37,107 nucleotides of DNA from Myxococcales bacterium (GTDB lineage Bacteria > Myxococcota_A > Polyangia > JAHFDS01): NCBI GenBank assembly GCA_023248855.1, contig JAHFDS010000022.1:1-37107 (forward strand), written 5' to 3'. Every line of letters starts with the position of its first letter. Position 1 is the first letter of the stretch. Below, one piece after another: positions 9,478 to 36,708 of this stretch. The notes below the pieces were generated by a model. That model was not told the origin of the DNA. It saw nothing but the letters and a program-made list of their open reading frames with translations, and ran no database searches. Made by a program: the position numbers and the translations under genes.

Positions 9478-9660
9478 ATGGATTCTGGTGGCTTGCCAGC
9501 CGGCCCTGGAGCGAGCGAGGTGCCCACGCAGCCGGGGCTGCGTGAGACCGGTAGTATCGTAGTAATCCGCGTGCGCGAAGCGCTCGCGTCCCTCGAGCGG
9601 GGCGACGCCCAGAGAGCTCGGGTGCTCCTGGTCGAAGCGCTGCAGGCGCTGACCGACTGA
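9478..9660 (+). CDS. Possible small protein (60 aa), unrecognised
   Basis: A 60-aa frame starts with an ATG at 9478, with GGAGCAGG about 8 nt upstream. Its C-terminal half (IRVREALASLERGDAQRARV) would form an amphipathic helix pair like many small island proteins. It is the only candidate gene between the attachment site and the convergent gene at 9670. Composition is plausible but so short a frame could be chance in GC-rich DNA. No family is recognised. Confidence 0.4.
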   Translation: MDSGGLPAGPGASEVPTQPGLRETGSIVVIRVREALASLERGDAQRARVLLVEALQALTD

Positions 9661-9669
9661 AGCTGCTCA

Positions 9670-10182: not shown

Positions 10183-10225
10183 GGATGAGCGCCTGCGGAT
10201 CCGGCGCCACCCATGCCTGGGACAC

Positions 10226-12184: not shown

Positions 12185-12391
12185 ATGACGACGACAGAGC
12201 CGTGGGCTTCGGTTGAGGACGTCGCCAAGCATCTCGGAGTGGCGAAGGACTCCGTGTACCGGTGGATCGAGGCGCGGAAACTCCCGGCTCATCGCATCGG
12301 GCGGCTCTGGAAATTCAAGCTCTCCGAGGTCGACGAGTGGGTTCGGGCGGGAGGCGTCAAGGAAGACGACGGAGGGGGCAACCAGAGCTAG
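12185..12391 (+). CDS. Small helix-turn-helix (excisionase-family) DNA-binding protein
   Basis: This 68-aa protein is almost entirely one MerR/excisionase-type [24 protein letters not shown], then [13 protein letters not shown] and EVDEWV. The tail is acidic and glycine-rich. Proteins of this kind are either recombination directionality factors or small transcriptional regulators. It is the first gene of the long operon, and its TAG ends 2 nt before the next ATG, so I infer a regulator of the defence genes, perhaps acting at the palindrome upstream. The ATG at 12185 has GGAG about 7 nt upstream. No integrase is next to it, which argues against an excisionase role. Confidence 0.8.
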
Positions 12392-12393
12392 CG

Positions 12394-15300
12394 ATGATGC
12401 CGGCCGCCCAACCCAGAGATGAACGACCAGTCGAGCCGGCGAGCGCGCTGCGCGAAATCGCACACGCCGAGCGGTTCGACGTGCTTCTGCGTTTCGGCGT
12501 TGCGGCCGAGGCCTCGCGTTACTTGCGCGCACTCACCAGCCTGCTCTTCGGCGGGAGCACCAAAGTCACCGCGACGCTGACGACAGGCGCGCCGCGCGAG
12601 GACCTTAACGCCGAGGAGATCGCCGACCGGCTGTCGCGTGGCGCCATCGACAAGCTGCGGTTCGCGCTTCGGCTTGGCGAGCGCTCGCTGCACATTGAGC
12701 TTGCGCTCCCGGCCTCCGAGTGCGGCGCCGTCGCGCTTTGCGCTCCGTTCACGAACGGCCCCGTCATTTCGCGCCTCTGGCTCCAGACCGACACCGACGT
12801 CGTCGCCCCGATCCCGGCGCTCGCGCTCCCGACAACCGCCGAGGGGCTCGCCATCGACGCCGCGCACGCGCTCGTCGGGCTTGCGATCCGGTGTGGTGGT
12901 TTCCATGTCGCCGAGCTCGTAGGCGAGCATCTGCTCACCTGGAACACGACGAAGCCGCACGACGACGCCCAGCCGGTGCACAGCACGCTCCGCGACGCCG
13001 TGTGGAGCACCGGCAACTCGGAGGGCGCGGTCGCGCTGTGGGTCACCGGCCTTCCGCCCTCGCCGAAGCCTCCCACGCCCGAGCCCGGCTGGTGGGAGCA
13101 GTACGACGTGCTCACGCGCAGCCCGCGCGAAGCGCGGACCGAGCTGCATACCCACCTCGCCGCGCACTTCGACATCCCGTTCGCGTGGGCCATCGTCGAC
13201 AAGACCGCTGCGCCCGAGGGCACCTTCGTCGTGCAGCCCGAAGCCAGCGCCATCGCGCGCCTCGTGCCGGAAGCCGATCGCGTCGTCGTCGCCGTCGACA
13301 TGGAGCAGCCCGCCTCACTGATCGCCGAGATGCTGCTCCACCTCTGCGCGCACCTCACGCTCGGCCACGTTCGCCCGGGCGATGCGTGGGGCCATTGGGA
13401 CACGCAAGCCTCGCTTTCGCCGACGCCGCACCGGCAATGGGACCGCGAAGCGCGCGCCTTCGTCGACGCCCACTTCGCCCGCCCCGTGCGCCGCGTCTCG
13501 TCGCTCGAAGAGTGCAACCCGCGCGAGAAGGCGTGGCTCGTGTTGCTCGATCACATCGGTCGCATGGTCGGCCAGACGCGCACGCTGCACCCGAAGACGG
13601 AAACCTACCAGGCCGCCGCCTACCAGCGTCAGGCTGCGCAACGCCTCGTCGCGCAGCTCGAGGAGTACGGCGGCGCGATGCTCTGCGACGGCGTCGGCCT
13701 CGGGAAGACCTACGTCGCGACCACCGTCGCCGTTCACTACGCGAACCAGTGGCGAGACCAGCTCGCCGACACGAAGCGCTCGGCCATCGACGACCCGTTC
13801 CGCATCACGGTGCTCTCGCCCAACTCGGTGGTCAGCACCTGGCAGCGCGAGGCCATCGCGCCGCTCGCCGCGCATGGCGTTCCGCTCGCCACCATCCGCG
13901 TCATCTCGCACTCGAAGCTCTCGCGCATCGTGCCGTCGAGCGACATCCTCACGCGCGGCCGCGCGGGCATGAGCGACACGGAGCACCTGCTCCTGTCGGA
14001 CCTGGTGGTCGTCGACGAGGCGCACAACTTCCGCTCCGTCGGCGCGCGCCGCACGACGGTGCTGCGTGACCTCTTGCGCCTGCAGCCGCGCAAGGACCTA
14101 CGCCGCAAGGTGCTGCTGCTCACCGCGACGCCCGTCAACAACAGCCTCGAAGACTTGCGCCAGCAGGCGGCGCTCATGTTCGGCAAGCCGCTCTTCTTCA
14201 ACGACCACCTCACGCCCGACAAGTACCGCTCCAGGGTCTTCAAGGACATCGAGGAGCGCGTCGGCAAAGCCACCAGGGGCAAGGGCGCGGCCGATGTCGC
14301 GGCGTTGCTCGTTCACGGCGACGCCTCGGCGAAGTTCGCCTACGCGCCCGACTTCCGCGATGACGTGCAGTTCGGCGTGCAGGTGCCGCGCGTGGGCGAC
14401 TACCTCAAGGAGCAGGAGAAGCGCCTCGTTGCGCAGCAAGCGACCGTGCGTGCCGCCATCCAGAGCGGGCAGCCGCCCACCGATGCACCCGCGCGCATCG
14501 CGGGCGAGCTCCTCGACCGCGTCGTGGTCCAGCGCTCGCGCGCGCTCTGCAAGCAGATCGAGCGGGAGCAAGGCTCGAGCGCGCGGCTCCTGTTCCGGCC
14601 TGACGCGGCCACGCCCGAGAAACTGGTCTACGAAGACGTCTACGACGACACCCGCGACGTGCTCGCGCGCTTCCTCCCGCTCTTCGAGACCGAAAAGGAG
14701 GCAACGGACAAGGGCACGCCGCCGCTCTCGCTCAAGGTCTACATGTGGGCCGACGTTCGCGACGGCATCCGCGACGCGGGCGAGGTCTCGTCGGTGGTCG
14801 GCCTCCAGCGCGTGCTGGTGCTCAAGCGCCTCGAGTCTTCGCCGGTCGCGTTCCTCATCACCTTGCTCCGGCTGCTGGCGCTACATACGCATCGGCTCAG
14901 GCAGCTCGTCGAGCTGTGCCGCGAGGTCGGCGATAAGAAGCGCGAGAAGGCGCTTGCCGCCGAACTCGCTGACCTCATCGACCAAGTGAGGCCCGTCGAG
15001 CGTGAGCGCATCGACGCGTTGCTCACCGGCAGTACCAGGACAAAGTCGCGCGCGACCGACTTGCTCGAGCGGTGGAGCAACGCGCACATGAGCGCAAAGG
15101 CGGCCGCCGACACCGACGATCCGTTGCCGCCTCAGCTCGACCTGTTCGGCGAAGACGAGAAGACGGTGGAACGTCGCGAACAGCTCGATCGTCTCTGGAG
15201 CCTCCGTGAAAGCCTCGCGCGCGATTTCGCGACGCTCCTGCGCATCGCGCCCAGCCTCGCCGACATCGTCTTCGGCCGCTTCGCAGAGTCCGATTGGCCT

Positions 15301-16782
15301 CAACGCTTCATCAACGGCGGTCAGGAGGTCGACTGGCCGACGTCGGCGGTGTGGGCGATGCGCATCGTGACCGACGCCAAGCTGCAGCGTCTCGTGGCCC
15401 GCTTGCTGCGCGCGCGCAAGGACGGACAGAAGGTCATCGTTTTCTCGCAGTTCACCGACACGCTCGCCTACCTCGACTCGGTACTCCGCGCAGCGCCCGT
15501 GCTCCAACGCAACGAGTGGAAGAGGGTGCTGCGCGAGCTCTCCACCGGCGCGGGCCACATCGTGTCGAGAGAAGAGGTGCTCGACCTCGTCAGTCGCATC
15601 GCCGTCGTGAGCGGCGAGACCGAAGAGCGCGACGCCCTCATCCATGCCTTCGCGCCGTTCTACCGGCTGGGACCCACGCGCCCGCGCTTGGCTGGCGTGT
15701 CGCCGCTCGAACAGCGACAGCTCGACGCGCTGTGGATCGACGGTTGGACGCAGGCCCTGAAGCAGCCCACCGATGTTCTCTTCGCCACCGACGTTCTCGC
15801 GGAAGGCGTGAACCTCCAAGACGCGGCGCTGCTCATCAACTTCGACGTCCACTGGAACCCGGTGCGGATGATCCAGCGCGCGGGCCGCATCGACCGCCGC
15901 CTGAACCCCGCCATCGAGGAGGCCTCGGGCTTCCCCGACCTCGAAGCGCTGGCGCGCGACCTCGGCGTCGCGCTGCCACGCTACTGGTGGCACACGCACG
16001 CCGGAGCCGCGCCCGTCACGGTGAACCTGCTCCTGCCCGACGAGCTCGAGGCCGAGCTGCAGCTCCGCGAGCGCATCGCCAACAAGACGCTCGCCATCGA
16101 CTTCACCCTTGGCCTCGAACAGGGCACCGGCGCCGAGGCGGACTGGATGGCCGAGTACCGCTACCAGGGCATCTCGGCGCTCAACGCCTGGCAAGGCGAT
16201 CGCGCCATCGAGCAGATCGCAGGTTACCAACAGCGCCTGCGCCGCCTGATGAGCGAGCGCGGCATCGACGCCGAGTGGCTCGCCTTGTGGAGCGGCTGGC
16301 TACGCGAGGTCGGCGGGCGCGAAGACGATTGCATCCTCGCGTGGGCGCAGCTCGGACGCAAGGGCGGCGAGACCACCGTCTACACGCGGCAACTCCACCC
16401 CCGCGTTGTCGATGGTGTTCCGCATTGGCTCTGGACGACGGCGAAGCCCGCCGACTCGCTGCTCAACTTCTGGCTCTCCCTCGACAGCAAGACCTTTCCG
16501 GCGGCAACCCGCACGGGCCTCGCCTTCTCCGAAGGCGCCTCGCGGCCCATCACGGCCGAGGACCTGCTTGCCGCCTCGCGACGCCTCGTCGACGAAGACA
16601 CCGCGCTCGAAGAGCTGGGCGACATGCGCCGCCCGCTCCTGCAGGGCGCCTCGGCCATCTCGGCTGGCTTCCTCGACGCAGAGCCCGACCGGCGCGCCAT
16701 CGCCGTCAGTGGATTTCGACTCCTTCAGCTTCATCGCATCGACGAGGCTGCGCCTGTGACATCGAGTGAGGCCGAATGCTGA
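12394..16782 (+). CDS. SNF2-family helicase, DISARM DrmD-like, with degenerate zincin segment
   Basis: This 1,462-aa protein is a superfamily 2 SNF2-type translocase. The Walker A is DGVGLGKT at 432-439, DEAH is at 541-544, LLTATPVNN starts at 575, a VIVFSQF block marks the second RecA lobe, and QRAGRIDRR is at 1161-1169. The nearest known defence protein type is DrmD of class 1 DISARM, also an SNF2 helicase next to an adenine methyltransferase. The N-terminal 400 residues hold an ImmA/IrrE-like segment, [10 protein letters not shown] at 316-325, with E352 in REARAF as a possible third ligand. The catalytic glutamate of HExxH is replaced, so it is probably an inactive, structural domain. The ATG at 12394 follows the HTH gene by 2 nt. 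Its end overlaps the methyltransferase start by 7 nt. It probably moves along invading DNA in the complex. Confidence 0.85.
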
Positions 16783-19700
16783 GCAAAGAAGACTTCGTCC
16801 GCCGCATCCTCGACGGCGCTGCCCCGACGCCCAAGAAGGCGTCGAAGGCCGCGTCGTCGACCGCCACCTTCAGCGCAGATGACGTCTTCGGCAGCGACGA
16901 CACCACGCCGGCCTCGATCCCGCCGCCCGCCGACACACGCTTCGCGCAGCTCCTCGTCGAGGAGGTCTTCGGCCCCGGTGAGGCGAAGAGCCGCGACGAG
17001 ATCGTCCTTGGCGACCAGAGGACCAGCAGATTCCTCCCTATCGCGGGCAGATACTGGGCCCCGAAGCCCAACGAGCGGCCGTTTCACATCGTGCTCTTCG
17101 AACTCGACAAGAAGGGCCGCGAGCTCCTCGACGACTCGTTCTTCAACAAGGGTGACCAGCTCGAAGATGCGCTCCATCGCATCATTCAAGACGTTCTCGA
17201 TGGCTTCGAGAGGAAGCGCGTAGCTTCTGCGGTGAAGGGCCCGCAGACGGAGACCCTCTGCGTCGTCTCCGTCGTCGACGACCGTGCCTCCAAGTCTGGC
17301 TGGCAGCTCGTCTGCTTCGGCACCAAGAGCACAGAGACCAAGGCCCTCGAAGTGTTCACGCTTCGCGAAGAGGTCCACGACTGGGACCGCCCCCTGGCCG
17401 AGGAGCACCTCGACCAGCTCTTCAGCCGCCATTTCGAGAAGCTCGCGAGCGGAGCCAAGTGGCAGGAAGCATTCATCACTGGGCCCGAACGCAAGAAGAT
17501 CCAGGCACTACTGGAAGTCTGCACCCAGCAGAGCCTCCTCGGAAGCGCCGAAGAGGAACTGCGCAAGAAGCTCCGCGACCTGCTCGACGAGATCGCGGGC
17601 TCCTTCGGCATCAACAAGAAGGCTGCCATCGGCAATCGCCGCCTCGACATGATCGAGCTGCCGGTCAACCACCGCATCGGGGCCGACCGTGTCGAGTCGC
17701 AGAAGCCGGGCTTCAAGAACCCGCTCCAAGGCGTACGCATCTACGACCGCAACGAGCGTCTCCTCGGCTTCGTCGTCTACGTCGCTTCGACCAAGGCGAA
17801 GGCCGAGGTGCTGCATGATGCGCTCGCGACGAACAACCACTTTCATAATGTCCTCGTCATCTACCCCCACAGCGCCGAGCCCGAGCTGGAGCTGTGGCAA
17901 GGCCACACGCCGCTACGTGGCCGGCTCACGCGCGGCCCCAAGCGGACGCAGTTCGACGGAGAGGGTGGCGTCGTGCAGCTCCTCTCGCGCTTCTTCGTCG
18001 TCAGCAAGAGCGCCATCGAACAGCCCAAGCAGCTCGCCAAGGAGCTGGCGTGGCGCGCCCAGGACCTGAAGGACTTCGCCGTCGAGGAGCTGAGGAAGGA
18101 GATCGCGAGCGGCAACGACAAGGGTCCGCTCAAGAAACTGTTCGACACCTTCAACGCTGCGCTCGCCACGCTGACGGTCGAGAAGTTCGCCGACGCCTAC
18201 GCGCAGACAATCACCTACGGTATGCTGGCCGCACGCTGGCTCTCGAGCGGCGAGCAGAGCCTGCTATTCACGCGCAAGAACCTCGCCGAGCTGCTGCCGT
18301 CGACGAGCGCCTTCCTGCACGACCTCTTCCAGAGACTCGTCAACTCCAACTTCGACAAGAATCTATCGTGGCACCTCGACGACATCACGAGTCTGCTTGC
18401 GCGGACCTCGGTCGCAACCGTGTTTCGCGACGTCACGAAGGATCCGTCGATACACTTCTACGAAGACTTCCTCGACATCTACGACCAGCAGGTCCGCAAG
18501 GACCAGGGCGTCTATTACACGCCCGACGAGGTGGTCTCGTACATCGTACGGACCGCGCACGCGTCGCTGCAGAACGACTTCGGTCTTCCGCTCGGCCTCG
18601 CCGACACGACGACGTGGGCGGCCTTCGCCAAAGCAAAGACACTCAAGGTGCCCGAGGGTGTCGACCCGAAGGCGCCATTCGTCCAGGTACTCGACCCGGC
18701 GCTCGGCACGGGCACGTTCCTCCTGCGCGTCATCGAGGTCATCCACGAGACGATGCAGGCCGAGTTCAAGAAGCAAGGGCTCGACGACGAGGCAGCGAGG
18801 AAGGCGTGGGTCAGCTACGTCCGCAAAGACCTGCTCCCCCGCATCAACGGCTTCGAACTGATGATGGCACCATACATCGTGAGCCACCTGCGCCTCGGCC
18901 TCGCGCTGCAGGAGACCGGCTTCACGTTCACGAAGAACGACCGCCTGCGCGTGTTCCTCACCAATTCCCTGGAGCCGCACACGGCGGCTCAGCTCTCCTT
19001 CATCGGAGAACAGGTCGCTGAAGAGGCTAAGGAGGCAGAGCGTGCCAAGGAGTCCATCCGCGTAACTGTTGTGGTGGGCAACCCGCCTTACGCCGGCCAC
19101 TCGCAGAACAATGGCGAGTGGGCACGAGCCCTTGTCGAACCGTACCGGAGTATCGACGGCAAGGCGCTACGGCTCGCTCAAGGAAAGTGGCTCCAAAACG
19201 ACTACGTGAAATTCATCGCGTACGCAGAGCGCCGACTCGCTACGACTGGGTTCGGCGTCCTCGGGTTCATCACCGACCATAGCTACTTGGACGGCGACAC
19301 GTTCCCGGGGCTGAGGCATCACCTCCTGGCCACTTTTTCGGACGTTGACGTGCTGAACTTGCACGGGAATCTCGCCCGCCGCGAGGCTCCACCCGATGGC
19401 GGAGCTGACGACAACGTCTTCAACATCATGCAGGGCGTTGCGATCTTGTGCGCAAGGCGTACGCCGGACGCAGCCGGCGGGCTGGCGACGTTCCGAACCG
19501 CTGACTTGTGGGGTGCGCGCGGACCGAAGCTCCAACGGCTCCATGCGGCCTCGGAAGGCGTCGTCCCCATCGCCTGGCTCACCGGCGTCCAGCACGACGA
19601 ACGCTTCCTCTTCATCGCTACTCGTTCAGGCACCGATGCGAGCGTGGAGTTCGCGCAGTTCGATGCCATCGACGCGGTGTTCTCGCCCAATGGCAGACCC

Positions 19701-20804
19701 GCGCCTGGCTTCTTGACCACGCACGACGACTTCGCAATTGCGTTCACTCGCGAAGAAATATCCGACAACGTGACCACGCTGCTCGCCACAAAATCCGAAG
19801 CGGACGCGCGCGACCAGTTCAGGCTTTGCACGCAGTCGCAGTGGCAGTACGCCAACGCGAAGAAAGTCCTGGCTACCGGCGGATGGCGAAAGCAGTTGGT
19901 ATCGTGCCTGTACCGTCCCTTCGATGAGCGCTGGACGGTTTACGACCCGAGCGTCCTTGTTCATCGCCGAGAGCGCGTGAACGCCCATCTCTTGGAACCG
20001 GGAAACGTCGCCCTCCTCACGACCCGAATGACTAAGGGAGACGACTTCAGCCACGTCTTCTTGTCCGACAAGATCACGGAGGTCATCAGCCTTTCGTCGA
20101 AGACTTCGGCCAACGCGTTCGTGTTCCCGCTGTTCCTCCGCGATCCCGACGGACTCGCGAAGCGCAACCAGCCCAACATCGACCGCCAAGTTGTGGGCGC
20201 GTACACCGAGATCGCGGGGAAGGCGGCCACGCCAATGGCGATGTTCGAGTACTGGTACGCGGTACTCTCCAGCCCGTCCTATCGACGGCGGTACAACGAA
20301 CTCCTCATCCGGGAGTTCCCGCGCGTACCTCGCCCTTCGTCGGCTGAGGTGTTCAAGGCGCTTGGCGAGCACGGGAAGCGCCTCATCGAACTGCACCTGC
20401 TGAAGACTTCACCGAAATCGCTCGGGGCCAACGACGGACTCCTGGGAAAGGGGGACCGAGTCGTCGCGCCCGGGATGCCGAAGTTCGACGCCAAGGAAGG
20501 CAAGATCTGGATCAACACGAAGCAGTGGTTCGCTGGAGTCTCCGCTGCTGTCTGGGGATTCAAGATCGGTAGCTACGAGGTCTGCAAGAAGTGGCTCTCG
20601 GCCCGGGCCCGGCGTGGACGCTCTCTCTCGAGTGATGAGTCCCGTCGGTTCGCATTGGTGCTCAACGCTCTCCGAGAAACGATCGAAGAGCAGGGCAAGA
20701 TCGATCGCACCATCGAGTCGTACGGCGGGTGGCCGCATGCCTTCCGCCTGGTCGGAGGCGCGGTGGCAACTGCGAGCGTCTCTACCGAGGAAGACGATGA
20801 GTAA
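16776..20804 (+). CDS. Giant adenine-specific DNA methyltransferase (DrmMI / type ISP-like)
   Basis: This 1,342-aa protein carries an N6-adenine methyltransferase core: SAM-binding DPALGTGTF at 640-648 and catalytic NPPY at 769-772, the gamma-class order. The core is preceded by a helical connector ([17 protein letters not shown] at about 575), as in type I and type ISP enzymes. Residues 900-1,340 probably recognise the target sequence. The N-terminal 500 residues are unrecognised; I see no clear PD-(D/E)XK or helicase motif there, so it is probably a methyltransferase only, unlike full type ISP enzymes. In class 1 DISARM a comparable enzyme (DrmMI) marks self DNA, and that is the likely job here. 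The ATG lies inside the end of the SNF2 gene, and its own TAA overlaps the McrB start. Confidence 0.85.
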
Positions 20805-26701: not shown

Positions 26702-27684
26702 TGACGCTCGCCCTCGTCACTCGCGAAGACGCCGTGAAGCGGCTCACGCAGCTTCCTGGCGGCGTACCGGACGCCATCGAAGCCTTGAGCGATTTCGTGC
26801 GCGCCGAGGTTCACGCCCGACAGCACGCTCCTCGCGCGACGGTGCTCTCGCGCGTGGCGCGGCTGCTCGCACCAGCCCTGGTCATGGAAGAGGAGCGCAT
26901 CGACGCGGTGTGCGACGCGCTCGAGCGCGAGGGCGACGTGGTGCTCGCCCCGGGCGGACTCCTCTACGCGACACCGACGCGCGTGGTGGCCCTGAAGAAG
27001 ACCGCGCGCATCTTCAGCAGCGTCCCGACGCGCACGCTTGCAGCAGTGCTCGGGCGAGAGGTCTTCGCGAAAGCCGCGACGCGCGCCGTTGCCTCGGTTG
27101 ATGGTCTCGCCGAAGCGGTCATGACGATCGGCGGCGCGATGGTCACGCCCGAGGTGTGGGCGGGCTTCGATCGCACGCCGCCCGCCGACGCCGCGTTCCT
27201 CACGAAGCTCGAACAGCGACTCGAATGGCAGGCGCTGGGCGCGGGCTCGCTCGAGAAGGACGGCCCGCTCGAGTGGCGTACTTGGCAGTCCACGCCGGAA
27301 GGCATGCGATGGCGGCGCAGCCACGAAGGACGCCTCTGGTGGGCCCGCACGCGCTTCGGTGGCCATCATCGCGCGTGGACGGGGAGGGGCTCTCCTTCCA
27401 CGAGCCCATTCGTCGAGCTGAACCCCGATGACACCGACCGCGCCCGCTTCGCGCTCTCACGCGAGGTGGCCGGAGCCTCTGTGCTGCGCGTCGTGCGCTC
27501 CGGCAAGTGCGCGACCCTCGAACTTCCTGCGTGGCTTCCACGCCCCGAGTACCGCTGGCTCTCGATGCAGGCGGAGCCCTCGCCCGACACGAAGGGTCTG
27601 CGCTGGGAGGTCGCCGCGCACGACGAAGCGATGATCACGAAGCTGCTGGCCGAGCGTCTCGGGCTTGTCGTGGAGGCCACATGA
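26701..27684 (+). CDS. Unrecognised 327-aa defence-operon protein, possible winged helix
   Basis: I do not recognise this family. Residues about 45-95 (ATVLSRVARLLAPALV, ERIDAVCDALEREGDVVLAPGG, LYATPTRVVAL) have the helix-helix-strand-wing pattern of a winged helix. The rest is mixed: a Trp-rich stretch at 195-230 (EWRTWQSTPEGMRWRR, GRLWWARTRFGG) and a beta-rich C-terminus. No catalytic motif is visible. It starts TGATG at the end of the S24 gene (a GTG at 26698 is also in frame) and overlaps the next start by ATGA, so it is a fixed member of the operon. It may be a specificity or adaptor subunit of the S24 protein or the RelE-UvrD helicase next to it. Confidence 0.8.
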   Translation: MTLALVTREDAVKRLTQLPGGVPDAIEALSDFVRAEVHARQHAPRATVLSRVARLLAPALVMEEERIDAVCDALEREGDVVLAPGGLLYATPTRVVALKKTARIFSSVPTRTLAAVLGREVFAKAATRAVASVDGLAEAVMTIGGAMVTPEVWAGFDRTPPADAAFLTKLEQRLEWQALGAGSLEKDGPLEWRTWQSTPEGMRWRRSHEGRLWWARTRFGGHHRAWTGRGSPSTSPFVELNPDDTDRARFALSREVAGASVLRVVRSGKCATLELPAWLPRPEYRWLSMQAEPSPDTKGLRWEVAAHDEAMITKLLAERLGLVVEAT

Positions 27685-29747
27685 CGCGACGACAACTCAC
27701 CATCAAACCGAGCTGCATGCGGGAGATCGCGACGTTCCCAGCAGACCGCGCCGCGCTCCTCTGGGACAAGATCGACGCGCTCGTTTCGGACCCATTCCCC
27801 GACGGGAAGGTGAAGAAGAAGCTCAAGGGCGCCGACGGTGTGTACCGCCTCCGCGTGACCGACCACCGCGTGTTTTATCGCTTCGGCGAGGATTGGATCA
27901 GCCTGCTCGGCATCCGACGGCGCGCCGAGGACACCTACGACGGTGTGCCTGACGAGACCGCCGACGCTCCGGCGCCCGATGACGGCGACGACAACCTCGA
28001 CGCGCTCATCGCCGCGTCGCAGCCGAAGGTCTTTCAGTTCAAGACGACGGAGCCCGAGACCACGCTGCCCGAGCCCATCACGCAGGATCTACTGCGTGAG
28101 CTCAACGTGCCCGTCGCAGCGGTGCCTACGCTGTTGCGCTGCACGACGGAAGAAGCGTTGCTCGAAGCGCCCGTACCTCCGGACGTTCTCAGCCGAGTCG
28201 TTGACCGTCTGTTCCCGCCGACCATCGAGCGGCTCGACCAACAGCCCGACCTCGTAGTCGCCTCGACGAAGGACCTGGTCCGCTTCAAGGAGGGCGACCT
28301 GCTGGGCTTCCTGCTGCGCCTCGACGAGGACCAGCTCAAGCTGACCCAGTGGGCGATGAAGGGCCCCACGATGGTTCGGGGCGGCGCGGGCACGGGCAAG
28401 AGCACCGTCGCGCTCTACCGCGTGAAGGCGCTCCTCGAACGGCCCGGCGCCTCGGGCACGGAGCGCGTGTTGTTCACAACGTACACGCGCTCGCTGCTCA
28501 CCGTCACGCAGCAGCTCCTCGAGCAGCTCCTCACGCCCGACCAGCTTCGCCGCGTCGAGGTGGCGACGTGCGACCAGATCGCGTGGCGCATCATCGGCAG
28601 GGCTCGCAAGGTCGGGCAGCTCGAATCGGATGGCGATGCGCTGCGCAGGCTCGCCAAGCTCCGCCAGAAGCACGTCTCCGGCGGTTCGGCCTTCGAGTCG
28701 AAGCTGCGTGGGCGCGCGCTGGAGCGACTGAGCGACGCGTGGCTCCTCGAAGAGTTCGAGTGGATCATCGAGGGCCGCGGCCTCACGAGCCTCGCCGAGT
28801 ACCAGGCTGCGGCGCGTCCGGGACGCGGTCTGCCGCTCAACGAGCGCGCCCGAGTGGCGGTGTGGGAGCTGTACGAGGCGTTTTCGAAGGGCGCGGGCGA
28901 GCGATACCCGGCACTGCGACGCGAGGCGCTGAAGCTCCTCGCCGAGGACGTTCAGGCTGTCCGTTACGACTACGTCGTCGTTGACGAAGCGCAGGACCTC
29001 AGCCCCGTATCGCTCGCGCTCATGGCCGAGGTTTGCAAGACGGCCGAGGGCATCTTCTTCGCCGCCGACAACAAGCAGTCGCTCTACTCGCGCAACTACA
29101 CGTGGAGTTCGGCGCACCCGCGTCTCCAATTTCGAGGGCGCACGGCGCTGCTCTCACGCAACTACCGCTCCACCCGCGAGATCGATCGCGCAGCGTTTTC
29201 GGTTCTGTTGGCCGAGGAGGAGGACGAGCTGGTCGCCTCGAACAGCGTCCACGAGGGGCCGCTCCCGGTACTCGTGCGCGACATCGCAGCAGACAGGCAG
29301 GCCGAGTGGATCGCGCGCTTCGTTCGGCAGATGGCCCGCCACCTTCACCTGAAGGCGAGCGCCGCCGCCGTGCTGGTTCCCTCCGCCGCCGTGGGCGAGA
29401 CGATCGCCAAGGAGCTTCAGGCGCAGGGCGTCGATGCCCGTTTCTTCCCCGGACGCGACCTCGACCTCAAAGCCGACGTGGTGCGCGTGCTGACGTTGCA
29501 CGCGGCCAAGGGCCTCGAGTTTCCCATCGTCATCGTCGCCGGCCTCGAGAGCGGTGCGTGGCCCGTGCCCGAGGACTTCGAGGAGCCCGCCCTGTTTGCC
29601 GAGCGCGCGCGCCACGAGCGGCGCGTGCTCTACGTCGGGCTGACCCGCGCAATGCGAGGCTTGATGCTGCTTGTTCCCCCGGGATGCCGACATCCCGCCG
29701 TCGTCGATCTCGACGTCAACCACTGGCACGTGGAGAGCGCCCCGTGA
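27681..29747 (+). CDS. UvrD/Rep-type helicase with N-terminal RelE-like domain
   Basis: This 688-aa protein fuses two modules. Residues about 1-95 look like a RelE/ParE-fold toxin domain (KKKLKGADGVYRLRVTDHRV, then FYRFGEDWISLLGIRRR). The rest is a superfamily 1A helicase: GGAGTGKS at 234-241, DEAQ at 435-438, SRNYRSTREI, LTLHAAKGLEFPIV and YVGLTRAMRG. UvrD-like enzymes unwind DNA 3' to 5'. The RelE fold could be an RNA-cleaving toxin or, as in related fusions, just a nucleic-acid contact. No antitoxin gene is adjacent, which argues for a non-toxic or helicase-controlled domain. The start overlaps the previous stop (ATGA), and its stop overlaps the next start (GTGA). Confidence 0.85.
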   Translation: MTRRQLTIKPSCMREIATFPADRAALLWDKIDALVSDPFPDGKVKKKLKGADGVYRLRVTDHRVFYRFGEDWISLLGIRRRAEDTYDGVPDETADAPAPDDGDDNLDALIAASQPKVFQFKTTEPETTLPEPITQDLLRELNVPVAAVPTLLRCTTEEALLEAPVPPDVLSRVVDRLFPPTIERLDQQPDLVVASTKDLVRFKEGDLLGFLLRLDEDQLKLTQWAMKGPTMVRGGAGTGKSTVALYRVKALLERPGASGTERVLFTTYTRSLLTVTQQLLEQLLTPDQLRRVEVATCDQIAWRIIGRARKVGQLESDGDALRRLAKLRQKHVSGGSAFESKLRGRALERLSDAWLLEEFEWIIEGRGLTSLAEYQAAARPGRGLPLNERARVAVWELYEAFSKGAGERYPALRREALKLLAEDVQAVRYDYVVVDEAQDLSPVSLALMAEVCKTAEGIFFAADNKQSLYSRNYTWSSAHPRLQFRGRTALLSRNYRSTREIDRAAFSVLLAEEEDELVASNSVHEGPLPVLVRDIAADRQAEWIARFVRQMARHLHLKASAAAVLVPSAAVGETIAKELQAQGVDARFFPGRDLDLKADVVRVLTLHAAKGLEFPIVIVAGLESGAWPVPEDFEEPALFAERARHERRVLYVGLTRAMRGLMLLVPPGCRHPAVVDLDVNHWHVESAP

Positions 29748-32700
29748 GCAATGTGAATCTCCACACCTTCGCCGAGGAAGGTCGCCTCGTAGACACGGAC
29801 ATCGTGGGCTTCCTCCGCAGGAAGCTCGACAAGGGCGACAAGCTCGACTTCACCAGCATCGTCGAGGTCGCCGAGGCCGTGCTCGACGCCCTGTTCGACG
29901 GCTGGTCGCCCGAGCAAGCGGCGGACTCGATCGCCGAGCTGAGCCCCGCTGCCGACGCAGCGCTCGCTGCTTGGGCCGACCGCGCGGGCGGCAAGGTCAC
30001 GAAGGCAGAGAAGACGACGCGTAAGGTCACGGTGCGCAAGCCCGCTCCGTCGACGCGGCCGCCGTCGGTTCTCGAGCGAGATCCCGCGGGCGACGAGCGC
30101 TTCACGCCGACGCGCCTGGTCCGTCGCCTGCAGGAGGCCCTGCGCGGCTACATCGAGAGCGCGTATCCGCTCAACGATCCGACGCTGGTGCGCGCACGGC
30201 GGCGCCTCCTCGAAGAGGAGGCGGGAGGTCACCTCCTCGCGCAGGAGCCGTACATCGAGACCACGACGCGCTATGCGACATCGAAGGCGACGTACGGCGA
30301 CCTCGGGCTCTCGGCGCCGTTGGCGACGTTCTTCTCGAAGCTCGCCAAGACTGCGTCGGTTCAGAGCACTTCGGAGGAGGCGCGCACAGTGCTCTTCTCC
30401 TCGATGTACGTGCATCAGGAGCGCGCGTTCCGCGAGTTCCTCGTCGAAGGCAGGGACATCGTCGTCGCGACGGGTACGGGTTCCGGCAAGACCGAGTGCT
30501 TCCTCGTGCCGATGCTCGGCTCGCTCTACGACGAGGCAGTACGTTCGCCGAGGACCTTCGAGCAGCCTGGTGTGCGCGCGCTCATCCTCTACCCGATGAA
30601 CGCGCTAGTGAACGACCAGCTCTCGCGTCTGCGTCTGTTGCTCGGTGATCCGGTTGTTGCTGACGCTTTCAAGGGGCTGGGGAAAGACCGACGCTTCCCG
30701 CGCTTCGGCATGTACACCGGGCGCACGCCGTACCCCGGCCCGCGAACGACCGCGCGCGACGGCGAGCGTGTGAAGCCGCTGCTCGACTACTACTTGGGCC
30801 TCTCGCCCGAGGTCGAAGAGCGGCTGCGTCGGCTCGGTCGCTACCCGGCCAAGGACCTCCAAGCGTTCTACGCTCAGAACGAAGCGCGCCGCCGGACGTA
30901 CCAGAGCGGCAAGCGCGCCGGGCAGGAGTACACCGACCACAACTGGGAGCGGCGGCTTCACACAGGACCGAGCGATCGCGAACTGCTGACCCGGCAGGAG
31001 ATGGTTCACGGAGCCGGGAGCCGTCCGGGCCATGCGCCCGACGTGCTCGTCACGAACTACTCGATGCTCGAGTACATGCTGATGCGGCCGTTCGAGCGCC
31101 CCATCTTCGCAGAGACGAAACGCTGGCTCGACCAAGACGGCACGCAGCTCCTCCTCGTGCTGGACGAAGCGCACATGTACCGGGGCGCGAAAGGCGCGGA
31201 GGTCGCGTTCCTCATTCGCAGACTGCGTGCGCGACTCGGTATCCACGATCGCCCAGACAAGCTGCGGGTCATCGCCACCAGCGCCTCCCTCGGCGAGGGC
31301 GCAGCCGCCGTCGACGCCGTCAAACGCTTCGCCGCCGACATCTCCGGCAAGCGGCCGGAGAGCTTCGAAACCATCACGGGCACACGCGAGGTGCCGACGC
31401 CCGCCAGCCCGGCTCCGAAGGAGATCGCCGACACGTTGGCCTCGCTCGACCTCGACGGCATCAACGAGGCGCTCGATGCCCCGACGCTGCGTGAGAAGCT
31501 CGCGCCGTTGCTTCCGAAAAGCACGAACCCAAGCCCTTCGGAGCACGAGGTGCTCGCAGAGCTTCACGCTGCACTCAAGAACCAGCCGTGGGTGAACCAG
31601 CTCGTGAAGGAGGCGGCGGGGCAAGCCATCGCGCTCGGCGAGCTCGCGCCGCGCGTGTTCCCGGGACACCCCGATGCGCGCCGGGCGCTCGAAGCGTTGC
31701 TCACGGTATCGACGCTCGCGCGCAACAAGGCCGACGAGCCGGGCCTCGTGCCGACGCGCGTCCACGGCCTCTTCCGCGGCCTGCACGGTCTGTATGCTTG
31801 CGTAAACGCGCATTGCGAGGGGCGGCAGAGCGAGCCCGGAGATCCCGCCTTGCTCGGCAAGCTCTTCACCACGCCGCGAGCGGTGTGCGATGCGTGCGGC
31901 TGCCGCGTCTTCGAGATCGCGTCCTGCAGGAGCTGCGGATCCCCATACTTGCTCGCGTACTCGCAAGACGAGTCGCTCGACCGCCTCTCGTTCCTCTGGG
32001 GTGAGACCGAGGGTGCGCTCTTTCGGCTCGAGCTGCTCCCCAGCGCGCCGCGCTACACGGACCGCACCGAGCTCGTGCGGCTCCACCTCCGCACCGGCTA
32101 CCTCGACATCGGCAATCGTTTCCCGGACGACGAGGTGCGCGAGCTGGCGATCTGGCTCAATGGCGACGGCAAGCGCGAGGCATCGTTCGACCGCTGCGCC
32201 ATGTGCCAGCCCGCTGCGCCCGCCAAGAGCCGCATCTACGACTTCAGGACGCGCGGCGAGCAGCCGTTCACGGCGCTCATCGAGGCGCAGTTCGCTGAGC
32301 AGCCGCCGCAAAAGAAGGACCCGCGCCTACCGAACCACGGCCGCAAGGTGCTCGTGTTCAGCGACGGTCGGCAGAAGGCCGCGCGCCTCGCGCCCGCGCT
32401 CGAGCACAGCCACGCCCGCGACCTGTTCCGCCAGGTCGTCGCGCTGGCCGCGCACGAGCTGCGCGACAAGGGCGGGCTCTCGGCGATGCAGTACCTGTAT
32501 CCCGCAGTCGTCCATCTCTGCGCGCATCGCGGCTACGACCTGTTCCCGGCCGCCGACGAGGTCGAGTTCCACAACCACCTCGGGCAGGTGAAGGGCAAGA
32601 CGCTCCAGCAGACGATCGCGATGGCCAACAAGGGCTGGCTCCGTGCCACACGCTCGTTCGCGCAAGCGATCTTCAGCGAGCTGACGGACCGCTACTACTC

Positions 32701-35557
32701 ACTGCCCGCGCTCGCGCTCGCCACCGTCGAAGAGGACCCGGACACGGCCTTCATGATTTTCGACGATTTCCCGAACGTCGGCGTCGAAGCCGACGCGCAG
32801 AAAGTTCTGTTTCGCGCCTGGCTCCGGCAGCACCTCGAGCGACGCTCTTTCCGCCCCGATGGCGCCGAGACGCGCGAGCTTGGCGAGGGGTGGGCCCACC
32901 CGCAGGGCATCAACGCCGCGCGGCTCGAGCACGTGCTTCCCAACCGCTTCGACCAGTACCTGGCCCAGGTCCTCAGCGGCAACCTGGCCAAGGTCGAAGA
33001 AGTGAGCAAGTGGTTCCAGCATGTCGTGCGCGACAAGGGGCTGCTGCACTTCGAGAGCGACCTGTACTACCTGCAGCTCCAAGGCCTGAGCTTGAACCTC
33101 CGGCTCGACGCGAACTGGCTGCGCTGCCGCGACTGCGCGCGCATCCATCCCGAGGCCCTGGCCGACGCGTGCCCGGCGTGCCTCGGAGCGGTCGTCGAGG
33201 TGGACGCAGACTACCTCGACGCGCGCACGGGCTTCTACCGGCGCCAGGTGCAGCGCGCATTTGACGAGCGCGCTCTCGAACCGTTCGGCCTCTCGGCAGC
33301 GGAGCACTCCGCGCAGCTCACAGGCCAGCCCGACGAGAGCGCATTCAACAAGGTCGAGGAATACGAACTGCGCTTCCAGGACGTGCCGCTCGACAACCTT
33401 CCGCCGATCGACGTGCTGAGCTGCACGACGACGATGGAGGTCGGCATCGACATCGGCGCTCTCTCCGGCGTCGCGCTACGCAACGTGCCGCCGCACGTCG
33501 CCAACTACCAGCAGCGCGCCGGTCGCGCGGGCCGTCGCGGTCGCTCCATTGCGTCGGTCATCACCTACGCGCACGGCACCTCGCACGACGCCCACTTCTT
33601 CGACCACCCGGAGCAGATCATCTCGGGCGACGTGCGCGCGCCCGTTGTCTACGTCGAGAACCAGCAGGTACTCGAACGGCACATCCACGCCTATCTCGTG
33701 CAGCGCTTCTTCCACGAGCGGGTACCGCCGGACCCGACCAGCTACGACCTGTTTGGCTCCCTCGGTTCGGTCGAGCAGTTCCTCTCCGAGGCGCATCCGT
33801 GCTCGCTGCTGAAGCTCGAAGCGTGGCTCGATGAGAACGTCGGCCTCCTGCGTCGCGAGCTCGCGGGCTGGGTTCCCGGGTTCAGCTTCGGCCTCAACGA
33901 GCCCGTCGCCGAAGTCGAGGAAACGCTGCGAGGCGCCATCGACCGTACCAAGGCGCGCATCCGCGAGGTGTTGCCGGTGAACGAGTACGCGGCTCGCGAG
34001 ACGCTCGCTGACCTCGAGCGCGAGTCGCTGGAGCGTCGTCTGGAGGAGCCCCTTCTCGAGACGCTGATCGGACATGCCGTGTTCCCGCGCTACGCATTCC
34101 CGACCGACGTCGTCACGTTCTGGGTCTCGAAGCCTCGTCAACCCGGTGACGCCCCCGGCAAGCGCACCTTCGACTACGAGCCGCAGCGCGACCTGCAACT
34201 CGCGCTCACCGAGTACGCGCCCGGGCGAAGCCTCACCATCGACAAGTGGCGCTTCGAGTCAGCGGCGCTCTATTCACCCTACGAGCCGACGCCCGCGCAC
34301 ACGATCCAGCGGCAGCGCCCGTACACCTCCTGCAGCGACTGCTCGTGGGCGACAATGGATGCGTCGATGGCGCAGGCCACGCTGTGCCCGGTCTGCGGCA
34401 GCGATCATCTCACGCGCACCGCGTTCATTACGCCTGCTGGATTCGCGCCCGACCTCAACGCCAAGCGCGAAGTCGATCGCGGGCAGGCCATCAGTTACGC
34501 GGGCATGACCGACCGCGCGCGGCTCGAACCCCAGGACCCGACCTCGGCGTGGACCGAGGGCTGCGACAGTCGGCTGCTCCGGTGGACAGGCCCGCGCCGC
34601 CTCGTGATGGTCAACAAAGGCGTCGGCCAGCGGGGCTTCCGCGTGTGCCCTGACTGCGGCCGATCGGAGCCGGAGTACGGCCCTGGCTTCACCGCGACGA
34701 AGCTCATGAAGAACGGCGCCGCGACGACGCATCAGCACCCGCTCGAGAAGGGCGTCGTGTGCGCGGGCGTCGCCGACGGTCCCTTCTACCTTGGCCACGA
34801 GTTCCCGACCGATGCGCTGCTCTTGCGGCTTCGCGTAAAGGCCCCGGTTCAGCTCGGAGGGGCGAGCACCACGGGCTTGCTCACCCGCGCCTCGCGCATG
34901 GCGCTCTCGTCGCTGGTTGAGGCCCTGGGCCTCGCGGCGTCGCGTGTCCTGCAGATCGACGAAGGCGAGCTCTCGGGCTGGTGGACGCCCGTGATGGGCG
35001 GACGACCTGACGAGGCGCAGCTCTACCTCTACGACCTCTTGCCGGGCGGTGCGGGCTACGCGCGCGCCGTCGGCAACGACCTGCCGGATGTGCTCGACGC
35101 TGCCGACGCGCTTCTCGGCGGCTGCGACTGCCCGTCGTCCTGCTACCGGTGCATCCGCCACTACGGCAACAACTGGATCCACGCTTCGCTCGACCGCCAC
35201 GTCGCGCTCGCGCTCCTTCGCCACCTGCGCACGGGCGAGCTGCCGAGTCTCAGCGACCAGGACAAGGACCGCGCCCTCGTCGGGCTTCGCCAGCTCCTCG
35301 CGTTGCGTGGCATCACGTGTGAGGAGAACGCGATCCTCGGAGGCACGCGCGTCCCGCTCCTCATCCAACTGGCCAACTCGCGGGTGTGCCTCGACGTTCA
35401 TCATCCGCTGATCGATCCGCTCGCGCACGAGTCTCCGGTCGTCTCGGCGGCGCGCTCGCAGTTCCTCGAGGCCGTGTCGCTCGACGCGTTCGACCTCCTT
35501 CACGATCTGCCTGCCGCCGTGGCGCGCCTGAAGCTGCCGAGCGGAGCGGTGGGATGA
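29744..35557 (+). CDS. Giant DEAH-box helicase with C-terminal DUF1998-type cysteine cluster
   Basis: This 1,937-aa protein is a superfamily 2 helicase of the MrfA/DruE/DrmA-DrmB type. Walker A ATGTGSGKT is at 242-250, DEAH at 474-477, a TTTMEVGIDIG block follows, and QQRAGRAGRRGR is at 1256-1267. Between the lobes are zinc-finger-like pairs (CDACG, CRSCG; CRDC, CPAC; CSDC, CPVCG; CPDCG). The C-terminus carries LYDLLPGGAGY and then CDCPSSCYRC (C1794, C1796, C1800, C1803), the DUF1998/MrfA metal site. In DISARM the helicase (DrmA) and DUF1998 protein (DrmB) are separate; here both are one chain, as in Druantia DruE, which has similar size. The GTG at 29744 overlaps the UvrD stop; the longer upstream frame is shadow. 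It is likely the main DNA-translocating engine. Confidence 0.88.
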   Translation: MSNVNLHTFAEEGRLVDTDIVGFLRRKLDKGDKLDFTSIVEVAEAVLDALFDGWSPEQAADSIAELSPAADAALAAWADRAGGKVTKAEKTTRKVTVRKPAPSTRPPSVLERDPAGDERFTPTRLVRRLQEALRGYIESAYPLNDPTLVRARRRLLEEEAGGHLLAQEPYIETTTRYATSKATYGDLGLSAPLATFFSKLAKTASVQSTSEEARTVLFSSMYVHQERAFREFLVEGRDIVVATGTGSGKTECFLVPMLGSLYDEAVRSPRTFEQPGVRALILYPMNALVNDQLSRLRLLLGDPVVADAFKGLGKDRRFPRFGMYTGRTPYPGPRTTARDGERVKPLLDYYLGLSPEVEERLRRLGRYPAKDLQAFYAQNEARRRTYQSGKRAGQEYTDHNWERRLHTGPSDRELLTRQEMVHGAGSRPGHAPDVLVTNYSMLEYMLMRPFERPIFAETKRWLDQDGTQLLLVLDEAHMYRGAKGAEVAFLIRRLRARLGIHDRPDKLRVIATSASLGEGAAAVDAVKRFAADISGKRPESFETITGTREVPTPASPAPKEIADTLASLDLDGINEALDAPTLREKLAPLLPKSTNPSPSEHEVLAELHAALKNQPWVNQLVKEAAGQAIALGELAPRVFPGHPDARRALEALLTVSTLARNKADEPGLVPTRVHGLFRGLHGLYACVNAHCEGRQSEPGDPALLGKLFTTPRAVCDACGCRVFEIASCRSCGSPYLLAYSQDESLDRLSFLWGETEGALFRLELLPSAPRYTDRTELVRLHLRTGYLDIGNRFPDDEVRELAIWLNGDGKREASFDRCAMCQPAAPAKSRIYDFRTRGEQPFTALIEAQFAEQPPQKKDPRLPNHGRKVLVFSDGRQKAARLAPALEHSHARDLFRQVVALAAHELRDKGGLSAMQYLYPAVVHLCAHRGYDLFPAADEVEFHNHLGQVKGKTLQQTIAMANKGWLRATRSFAQAIFSELTDRYYSLPALALATVEEDPDTAFMIFDDFPNVGVEADAQKVLFRAWLRQHLERRSFRPDGAETRELGEGWAHPQGINAARLEHVLPNRFDQYLAQVLSGNLAKVEEVSKWFQHVVRDKGLLHFESDLYYLQLQGLSLNLRLDANWLRCRDCARIHPEALADACPACLGAVVEVDADYLDARTGFYRRQVQRAFDERALEPFGLSAAEHSAQLTGQPDESAFNKVEEYELRFQDVPLDNLPPIDVLSCTTTMEVGIDIGALSGVALRNVPPHVANYQQRAGRAGRRGRSIASVITYAHGTSHDAHFFDHPEQIISGDVRAPVVYVENQQVLERHIHAYLVQRFFHERVPPDPTSYDLFGSLGSVEQFLSEAHPCSLLKLEAWLDENVGLLRRELAGWVPGFSFGLNEPVAEVEETLRGAIDRTKARIREVLPVNEYAARETLADLERESLERRLEEPLLETLIGHAVFPRYAFPTDVVTFWVSKPRQPGDAPGKRTFDYEPQRDLQLALTEYAPGRSLTIDKWRFESAALYSPYEPTPAHTIQRQRPYTSCSDCSWATMDASMAQATLCPVCGSDHLTRTAFITPAGFAPDLNAKREVDRGQAISYAGMTDRARLEPQDPTSAWTEGCDSRLLRWTGPRRLVMVNKGVGQRGFRVCPDCGRSEPEYGPGFTATKLMKNGAATTHQHPLEKGVVCAGVADGPFYLGHEFPTDALLLRLRVKAPVQLGGASTTGLLTRASRMALSSLVEALGLAASRVLQIDEGELSGWWTPVMGGRPDEAQLYLYDLLPGGAGYARAVGNDLPDVLDAADALLGGCDCPSSCYRCIRHYGNNWIHASLDRHVALALLRHLRTGELPSLSDQDKDRALVGLRQLLALRGITCEENAILGGTRVPLLIQLANSRVCLDVHHPLIDPLAHESPVVSAARSQFLEAVSLDAFDLLHDLPAAVARLKLPSGAVG

Positions 35558-36708
35558 GCTTCTACGAGTTGCAGGGCCCCACCGCGTGGGCCGACCCGCC
35601 GTCCATGTGGAGCAGCACGAGCCTCGACGACGTGGAGGCGTGCCCCCGTCGCTGGCAGCTCCTCCGTTCGCGCTGGGGCGACTTCGACCGCTTCCCGGTG
35701 CGTCCGCACCCGGCGGCCATCGAGGGGCAGATCGTTCACGAGGCCCTCGACCGGCTCACGCGCGCGTGCGGCCAGCGAGGCAACCCGGCCTTCGGAAGCG
35801 CGGACTTCGCGGCGGCGCTGATCGATGCGGACTTCTTTCCGAGCTTCGCGCGCTCCGTCGCCGAGTGGCAGTCGCGGCTCGCGGCCCATCCCAGGCCCGG
35901 TCCCGCGTTCCGTCTGCGGGCGAGCGCCGAGGAGCTGGCCAACCGCGCCGTGCGCATGTTCCGCGAGCAGTACAAGCCCGGGGAAGATTCTGTATCGCAG
36001 GCCGCCGAACCAGTGTCCGCCGCTGACGGTATCGGGGCGCTCCTTCGGCGGAAGCGGGCGCTCTCGGAAGTGAGACTTGAACATCCAACGCTTCCGTTCA
36101 TTGGCGTCCTCGACCGCGTCCAGCTCGTGTCGGAGAGCGTGGAGATCGTCGACTTCAAGACGGGTAGGCCGAGCGCAAAGCACCACCAGCAGCTCCTGCG
36201 GTACGCTCTCCTCTGGTGGCGCGTAGCGGGCGACCTTCCGGTGCGGGTCATCGCGCAGTACCTCGATGGGATCGAATCATGGCCCGTCAAGGACGCACCT
36301 CTCGCCGAAGTTGAAGCGGACCTCGCGACGAAACTGCCTGTACTTGCGGGAGCATTGCTCGATCACCCAGCACCCGCGAAGGCAGGCGCTGGCTGCCTTG
36401 TCTGCCCGGTGCGTGCTCGCTGTGACCCTGGGTGGGCAGTCGGCGAGGAGGCGGCACGTCTCGATGGACGCGGAGATGCTGAGCTGGTTGTCACGGCGAA
36501 GGCGGGGGAATACGGGTTCCTCGGTCGGTCAGGGGCTGGTGCCGAAGTGGCGGTGACATACGACGCAGCTGTCGGCAGGCTTCTGCCGCCACTGGTCGAT
36601 GGTCGGACGGTTCGAATCCTGGAAGGCGTGTGGAAGGAACGGGAATCACAGCTGGAGATCAAGACATGGACCGAGATCTTCGTGGTGGCCGCCGCTCCTG
36701 CACGATGA
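35554..36708 (+). CDS. Cas4/AddB-like PD-(D/E)XK nuclease with Fe-S cysteine cluster
   Basis: This 384-aa protein is the last gene of the operon. It shows the RecB/Cas4-type nuclease set: H62 in GQIVHEAL, D187 in GVLDRV, D200-x-K202 in VDFKTG, and QQLLRYALLW. C30 (ACPRRW) together with C281, C284 and C290 (CLVCPVRARC) matches the four cysteines of the iron-sulphur cluster in Cas4 and AddB. Such enzymes are DNA exonucleases or end-processing nucleases. The last 75 residues are beta-rich and could be an OB-like nucleic-acid-binding domain. It occupies the place that the phospholipase-D nuclease DrmC has in DISARM. The ATG overlaps the helicase stop (ATGA). Its 3' end overlaps the convergent gene by 50 nt. 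Confidence 0.88.
   Translation: MSFYELQGPTAWADPPSMWSSTSLDDVEACPRRWQLLRSRWGDFDRFPVRPHPAAIEGQIVHEALDRLTRACGQRGNPAFGSADFAAALIDADFFPSFARSVAEWQSRLAAHPRPGPAFRLRASAEELANRAVRMFREQYKPGEDSVSQAAEPVSAADGIGALLRRKRALSEVRLEHPTLPFIGVLDRVQLVSESVEIVDFKTGRPSAKHHQQLLRYALLWWRVAGDLPVRVIAQYLDGIESWPVKDAPLAEVEADLATKLPVLAGALLDHPAPAKAGAGCLVCPVRARCDPGWAVGEEAARLDGRGDAELVVTAKAGEYGFLGRSGAGAEVAVTYDAAVGRLLPPLVDGRTVRILEGVWKERESQLEIKTWTEIFVVAAAPAR

Follow-up and report, generated by a model that had tools for sequence, protein, structure and literature searches.

The window, by which we mean the whole stretch of DNA analysed here (37,107 nucleotides), is the whole of contig C582 in a Myxococcales assembly of 8.44 Mb (724 contigs, completeness 96.9, contamination 5.5). 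We observed that ten forward-strand genes, g1 to g10, occupy positions 12185-36708, separated by one gap and otherwise overlapping (Table 1). An earlier sequence-only reading of this DNA had described ten coupled genes on one strand, and both the positions and all nine junctions were borne out. The array is probably an antiviral defence operon. The left flank (1-11464) was phage-like, with Toprim, AAA_5 and two DUF5131 genes in addition to the flank features in Table 1. The CobT-VWA protein matched phage CobT-type proteins at 30-37% over part of its length (best 8 of the 32 listed), and a search for a plasmid match to it found none. The operon may be carried by an integrated element.

Table 1. 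Genes, gene junctions and left-flank features of the window
Feature	Position	Strand	Description and supporting match
tRNA-Arg(CCT)	2714-2800		left flank
CobT-VWA gene	2816-4870		left flank
Tyrosine integrase	8266-9387		left flank
g1	12185..12391	+	68-aa HTH_17/excisionase-type DNA-binding protein; PF12728 60.6 bits
g1/g2 junction	12391/12394	+	2-nt gap
g2	12394..16782	+	1462-aa SNF2-type ATPase; PF00271/PF00176; DEAH 541, QRAGRIDR 1161
g2/g3 junction	16776-16782	+	7-nt overlap
g3	16776..20804	+	1342-aa Type ISP/IIG-like DNA methyltransferase; PF18135 211 bits
g3/g4 junction	20797-20804	+	8-nt overlap
g4	20797..22728	+	McrB-like GTPase; PF07728; McrB 124 bits
g4/g5 junction	22728	+	1-nt overlap
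g5	22728..24104	+	McrC nuclease; PF10117 196.6 bits
g5/g6 junction	24101-24104	+	4-nt overlap
g6	24101..26701	+	866 aa; S24 domain ~123-288 and C-terminal region 294-866
g6/g7 junction	26701	+	1-nt overlap; 4 nt with GTG start 26698
g7	26701..27684	+	327-aa distant DruD homologue; hhalign profile-profile 97.8%
g7/g8 junction	27681-27684	+	4-nt overlap
g8	27681..29747	+	688-aa UvrD/GajB-like helicase, N-terminal ParE/RelE-like domain (20-84); PF00580/PF13361
g8/g9 junction	29744-29747	+	4-nt overlap
g9	29744..35557	+	1937-aa YprA-family helicase, Druantia type I DruE group; PADLOC DruE1 1570 bits
g9/g10 junction	35554-35557	+	4-nt overlap
g10	35554..36708	+	384-aa PD-(D/E)XK nuclease; PF12705 72 bits; DruK 46, Cas4 21 bits

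The catalytic motifs of the array proteins were intact on motif comparison. In g2, the likeness to DrmD and to ArmA was confined to the helicase motif regions. By sequence, g3 is nearest to the Type ISP/IIG enzymes: it scored 572 bits against the PADLOC REase_MTase_IIG profile, matched LlaBIII (PDB 4xqk) at E 6e-23, and has an NPPY motif at 769 and a Type_ISP_C recognition domain at 977-1286. A PDB sequence search with its residues 1-400 returned no match, as did one with residues 1-270 of g4. The latter protein consists of the domains D1 (1-135), D2 (~139-262) and AAA+ (290-640), with GPPGTGKT at 302 and NTAD at 457. D2 matched PADLOC PDC-S02; we take it to be EVE-like, and it is presumed to be a reader domain. 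The g5 motif PD(334-335)...DTK(352-354) was kept in all eight McrC proteins compared. The array thus has an McrB GTPase with NxxD and an McrC with PD-(D/E)XK, and the McrB/McrC pair that had been proposed is upheld by both profiles (Table 1).

At the rear of the array, g8 had near-full-length relatives at 34-35% identity, and its PF05016 match was at 23.1 bits for a cut-off of 23. One RelE-UvrD-type relative of g8 (34%, near-full-length) was seen in a Deinococcus plasmid BREX locus (L074:11980-14001), where it sits between BrxC and the methyltransferase. The MZB domain of g9 lies at 1726-1804. In blastp, g9 scored 890 bits against the DruE of Pseudomonas putida (35.7% over 1899 columns), 187 against E. 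coli DruE3 and 116-145 against three ArmC proteins. The P. putida locus has an annotated DruA, and its DruE-adjoining protein matches PADLOC DruD1 (386 bits). A helicase tree (27 rows, quick method) placed the window and ten relatives as one group inside an 18-row group with DruA-associated Druantia I helicases (SH-aLRT 100); three ARMADA II helicases fell elsewhere, type II being the confirmed ARMADA reference in this tree. Five long branches were flagged, of which one (a Deinococcus row) lay within the 18-row group and none within the eleven. The DruE-type helicase of the sequence-only reading is borne out by its PADLOC match. So is the Cas4-like nuclease, given the Cas4 score of g10 and its four invariant cysteines (30, 281, 284 and 290), whose spacing we take to be the iron-sulphur pattern of Cas4/AddB. 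These cysteines, together with D187, D200-F-K202 and Q213...Y217, were invariant in the eight loci compared.

The same reading had left two domains unrecognised, and we were able to place g7 and a part of g6. The g7 profile (11 sequences) aligned over columns 3-325 with columns 2-345 of a DruD profile, which was made from four helicase-adjacent proteins of DruA-bearing loci and includes two of the best single matches of g7. When the g7 profile was compared with 39 single proteins from Druantia-like and related loci, helicase-adjacent proteins ranked 1, 2, 3, 5 and 6 (96, 85, 83, 12 and 10%). Rank 4 (18%) was a protein not adjoining the helicase, and shuffled versions of the 39 proteins reached at most 0.5%. 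Two members of the DruD profile taken alone gave only 10-12% against g7. Neither tblastn of the window with P. putida DruD nor the PADLOC DruD profile against g7 (at E 0.01) gave a match, and the AlphaFold2 model of g7, from a 6-row alignment, had a pLDDT of 48. By profile comparison, g7 is a distant DruD. The DruD-like protein of locus G237 extends in frame by ~760 aa (L026:2242-5508), with segments matching the RNA polymerase alpha-CTD and sigma70 region 4.

We also searched for DruA. A tblastn search with three DruA/DUF4338 proteins found none in the window or in ten relatives; one of these queries did match loci G252 and G146. PF14236 was found nowhere in the window's genome, and the same search was silent in the control genomes too.

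The g6 protein had no match in Pfam, PADLOC or NCBIfam. Its S24 part, however, matched PF00717-containing proteins in blastp at 7e-20 to 7e-14, and residues 123-288 were 32-39% identical to the S24 part found at the C-terminus of three restriction-helicase proteins, all matching PF00717. Ser191 and Lys237 line up with the S24 proteins hitting PF00717, so the S24 domain claimed for this gene was confirmed. In the same class, HsdR/ResIII-type restriction helicases carry their S24 domains C-terminally (L010, L011, L012). Further along, ~438-606 of g6 (120-155 aa) resembles three proteins of Druantia-like loci in hhalign (G223 77%, Nitrosococcus 67%, G252 22%). P. putida DruB and DruC gave no tblastn match, and the AlphaFold2 model of g6 (8-row alignment) had a pLDDT of 38.

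An extra gene of ~1500 aa was present between g6 and g7 in four of eleven loci (G026, Ramlibacter, C12 and Xenophilus). Its N-terminus in G026 is TmtA/sacsin-like (196 bits; PF25794), and the other three start like it; TmtA is, we presume, part of Tiamat. The C-terminus of g6 is repeated at the end of all four proteins, with 67-71% identity to that of the window. The extra protein thus appears to be an added sensor tied to the rest of the operon through this shared part. The window lacks the gene, though its helicase sits among those of the four carriers. We looked for a clean crossover as the cause of this loss and did not find one: of 59 diagnostic sites in the window's g6, 12 have residues of the extra-copy type, and these are dispersed between 624 and 857. 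In four relatives, g6 has them at 0-5 of 64-69 sites. Our guess would be gene conversion before loss of the extra gene in the window lineage.

We next give the recurrence of the array. A g7 match was found in 12 of 317 genomes of the class, the window's own among them; four of the twelve were weak and partial (G058, G082, G099, G196) and were dropped, leaving eight. A genome-contig scan gave g7 in five loci, of which L035 was taken as G026. In a 399-genome sample of the Ramlibacter order, g7 was found in Ramlibacter and as one weak match only (G364, one of the two, dropped). The four matches in a 377-genome sample of the phylum were three known loci and one weak match (G982, dropped). Searches of plasmids and of viral contigs for g7 found none. 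Twelve loci were examined: the window, G026, G159, G228, G237, G284, G307, G316, Ramlibacter, Xenophilus, the MAG C12 and L037, a short contig. They were collected by g7, which is therefore present in 12 of 12 by construction.

These g7-marked loci in myxobacteria, Ramlibacter and Xenophilus bear out the expectation that the neighbourhood recurs in other genomes. Among assessable loci, we observed the g6 C-terminus in 11/11, DruE in 11/11 (partial in G228, interrupted in Xenophilus), g10 in 10/10 (cut short in G237 and G316) and SNF2 in 7/8. RelE-UvrD was present in 11 of the 12 loci and missing in G284. The DruD homologue and DruE adjoin, or UvrD alone lies between them. A methyltransferase precedes g6 in all ten assessable loci; it is Type ISP-like in eight (in G316, as read from a 456-aa fragment), HmaB in G228 and Type III in G284. 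McrBC or the S24 gene was not usually missing from otherwise identical operons, which would have counted against the earlier reading: a methyltransferase-McrBC front was found in 8/10 and the S24 Ser-Lys pair in 10/11. The array itself exists, but the constant set is smaller than the ten genes proposed, because g1 precedes g2 in only two of seven readable loci. g1 (MAD1-like score 64.5 bits, cut-off 80) is a probable regulator, optional in the array.

Most readable junctions were identical in ten relatives, whose starts were picked as those nearest to the homologous start in the window. The offsets were -7 or -4 at g2/g3, -8 or -4 at g3/g4 (exception G159, +1407), -1 in 7/7 at g4/g5, -4 or -1 at g5/g6 (exception G307, +1975) and -4 or -1 at g8/g9 (exception the interrupted Xenophilus copy). 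Since the junctions recur, a chance origin of the tight coupling is very unlikely.

A g7-independent search with a 500-aa piece of the helicase matched in 20 of 309 class genomes, at 22 places; five new ones were read and the weaker ten were left out. The eight matches at 54% identity or above were seven of the examined loci and G226, a 3.8-kb contig with UvrD and helicase only. Among the next four (39-41%), G252 proved to be a DruA-bearing Druantia I locus, and a DruA-like gene lies on the opposite strand in G146. McrBC, SNF2 and methyltransferase queries had no match in these four loci.

G026 is a Myxococcales MAG of the same class as the window; Ramlibacter and Xenophilus presumably belong to another phylum. 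Their helicases are 92% and 95% identical to that of the window (1365-aa piece), which suggests that the operon moved recently between the window lineage and these bacteria; mis-binning of the window's contig, as against transfer, may also account for it. The Xenophilus copy is probably inactive, since its UvrD is interrupted by an insert with a 280-aa ORF without Pfam match and its helicase by a DDE-transposase insertion (L053:2102-2941 and L053:8068-9153, both on the minus strand).

To follow how the parts evolve, we compared the identity of each with that of the helicase over pairs of eight loci, the pairs not being independent. The g6 C-terminus, g7, g8 and g10 track the helicase (rho 0.88-0.95, 28 pairs), as does g2 to a lesser degree (0.74, 21 pairs). 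The values were 0.71 for the S24 part, 0.5 for McrC, 0.49 for the intact whole methyltransferase, 0.36 for the McrB GTPase, 0.09 for the methyltransferase recognition domain and -0.09 for McrB D1. The methyltransferase N-terminus and catalytic part gave -0.17 and -0.12 (21 pairs). It is therefore the whole methyltransferase, beyond the recognition domain alone, that departs from the helicase. Two McrB architectures were seen: D1-D2-GTPase in the window, Xenophilus, G307 and Ramlibacter, and, in G026, C12, G159 and G316, D1-GTPase carrying an insert that separates Walker A from Walker B.

Locus G307 was a mosaic when compared in 300-bp DNA blocks. Identity to G026 is 94-100% at the end of its g2 and over the opening portion of g3 (earlier g2 blocks 70-89%). 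From there it is Xenophilus that is matched, at 96-100% over most of the remaining g3 and at 90-96% into McrB. Its McrC is at 67-77% and the alignable rear blocks at 67-82%. The remainder of g3 seems to form a single recombination tract with the 5' portion of McrB. The window, Xenophilus and G307 have a common recognition domain (94-98%), with D1 at 83-91% and D2 at 92-96%. Ramlibacter has another methyltransferase (39%) and a replaced D1 (23%) and keeps D2 (93%); because of this, a strict pairing of recognition domain and D2 was ruled out. In two loci the whole front differs. That of G228 is HmaB-HmaC (1341 and 965 bits) and that of G284 a Type III methyltransferase (990 bits); in both there is a 4-nt overlap with g6, by HmaC and by the Type III gene respectively. 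G284 also has an unlike McrBC (25-36% identity) nearby on the opposite strand. These comparisons indicated that methyltransferase and McrB sequences are exchanged, and that most rear genes evolve with the helicase. The proposal that the set is inherited as one unit is accordingly only partly true: the coupled junctions recur, but these sequences swap between loci.

We interpret the array as a composite anti-phage operon, in which a recognition front that works through methylation and can be exchanged is coupled to an effector chassis derived from Druantia type I; from the sequence comparisons, we give this reading a probability of about 0.58. As in Druantia type I, there is a DruE-group helicase, alike over nearly its whole length, and a DruD homologue; unlike it, the array has no detected DruA and has a methyltransferase, SNF2, McrBC, RelE-UvrD and a PD-(D/E)XK nuclease. 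The front resembles LlaJI, where McrBC-like subunits likewise share an operon with methyltransferases (PMC1459862), although LlaJI has two 5mC enzymes in place of the one Type ISP/IIG-like enzyme here. In LlaJI, DNA that is unmethylated is restricted by the McrBC-like subunits, and the McrB-like subunit sets the specificity (PMC1459862). Hma and Tiamat parts are absent from the window and occur only in relatives (HmaB-HmaC in G228, the TmtA-like N-terminus in G026).

In the composite operon, g3 would mark host DNA, its recognition domain choosing the sites; this activity is suggested by its motifs. By analogy with LlaJI, the g2 ATPase and the N-terminal domains of McrB would scan DNA, and phage DNA that lacks the mark or carries a wrong one would undergo GTP-driven cleavage by McrBC. 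The resulting ends, or stalled forks, may then be loaded onto g8 and g9, with g7 and g6 as candidate loading adaptors, and the DNA would be unwound by g8 and g9 and degraded by g10. The S24 domain of g6 could be a damage-responsive or structural switch in this loading or degradation step, and the TmtA/sacsin-like ATPase with the g6-type C-terminus a further sensor in the four relatives. LlaJI-type gating would in this way be joined to DruE helicase-nuclease action. A study on Druantia III describes its DruE as a helicase-nuclease engaging replication intermediates that contain ssDNA (PMC13192584).

The operon could instead be an ARMADA system with an acquired McrBC, its SNF2, methyltransferase, YprA helicase and RelE-UvrD corresponding to ArmA-D. 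According to Bell et al. 2025, ARMADA II has the same four functional classes together in an operon, each of the four genes being needed for protection, and a DISARM-like cassette with a YprA-like helicase is often found beside McrBC (2025 preprint, PMC12458937); Bell et al. 2024 likewise call McrBC prevalently associated with a DISARM-like system (PMC11090510). The RelE-UvrD is 26-28% identical to ArmD. Among the references, both the best SNF2 match (57% over 53 aa) and the sole methyltransferase match (E 1e-5) came from a possibly ARMADA-like Thermus locus that encodes SNF2, a methyltransferase, a YprA helicase and UvrD. However, g9 belongs to the Druantia I group, apart from the (type II) ArmC references; g3 had no blastp match to three ArmB proteins at E 1e-3; g2 matches ArmA around the helicase motifs only; RelE-UvrD precedes the YprA gene here and follows it in ARMADA; and DruD and McrBC are additional. 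We rejected the ARMADA II label on the helicase and g3, and consider the ARMADA derivation improbable. Still less can be said for a DISARM class 1 variant without DrmC, the label proposed earlier. An SNF2 ATPase, an adenine-type methyltransferase motif and a DUF1998/MZB helicase do co-occur, and DrmC is absent as stated, there being no PLD nuclease in the ten proteins. But DrmD reached 79 bits against a cut-off of 610 and PADLOC DrmMI 16 bits, a single fused helicase, placed in the Druantia I group, stands in place of separate DrmA and DrmB, and the nuclease is of the PD-(D/E)XK type. We therefore discarded this label, and the variant is very improbable.

The two other alternatives concern how the parts of the composite operon work together. 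McrBC could be a true Type IV enzyme acting on modified phage bases, the methyltransferase separately serving the SNF2/Druantia half as in BREX or DISARM. The canonical NTAD motif of McrB fits this, as does the swapping of its N-terminal and inserted domains, since GTPase inserts are likely specificity domains (Bell et al. 2024, PMC11090510). It is rather unlikely, however: the tract in G307 spans both methyltransferase and McrB sequences, and the window, Xenophilus and G307 share the recognition domain along with D1 and D2. Alternatively, a LlaJI-like restriction-modification system, a Druantia-like core and a GajB-like helicase could be independent systems on one transcript, a compact defence island without functional integration. 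Replacement of the front by HmaBC or a Type III methyltransferase would suit neighbouring systems, as would the absence of UvrD and the separate McrBC in G284, and the extra gene in only some loci. Against such independence are the small overlaps, shared at most junctions by loci of distant bacteria, the methyltransferase ahead of every assessable rear end, and the second g6 C-terminus that links the added sensor to the chassis; we regard it as unlikely.

Beyond the composite operon itself, we tentatively propose a previously unrecognised plug-in immune architecture, a generalisation that is possible but on balance doubtful. Its Druantia-derived chassis (g6 C-terminus, DruD, usually RelE-UvrD, DruE and nuclease) would accept interchangeable methyltransferase-based self-recognition fronts (Type ISP-McrBC, HmaBC or Type III methyltransferase), and sensors, S24 or TmtA-like, could optionally sit on the g6 C-terminal adaptor. 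It would be re-targeted, and spread between phyla, through recombination of methyltransferase-McrB cassettes. No account of this array came up in searches of open-licence full texts. To our knowledge, it is unexplained how Druantia type I discriminates self from phage DNA. A DruA-less branch with exchanged methyltransferase fronts makes that question testable, and raises the question of whether a swap of the front re-targets the same DruD-DruE chassis. The array loci also form a natural series in which the evolution of McrB domains and methyltransferases may be followed side by side.
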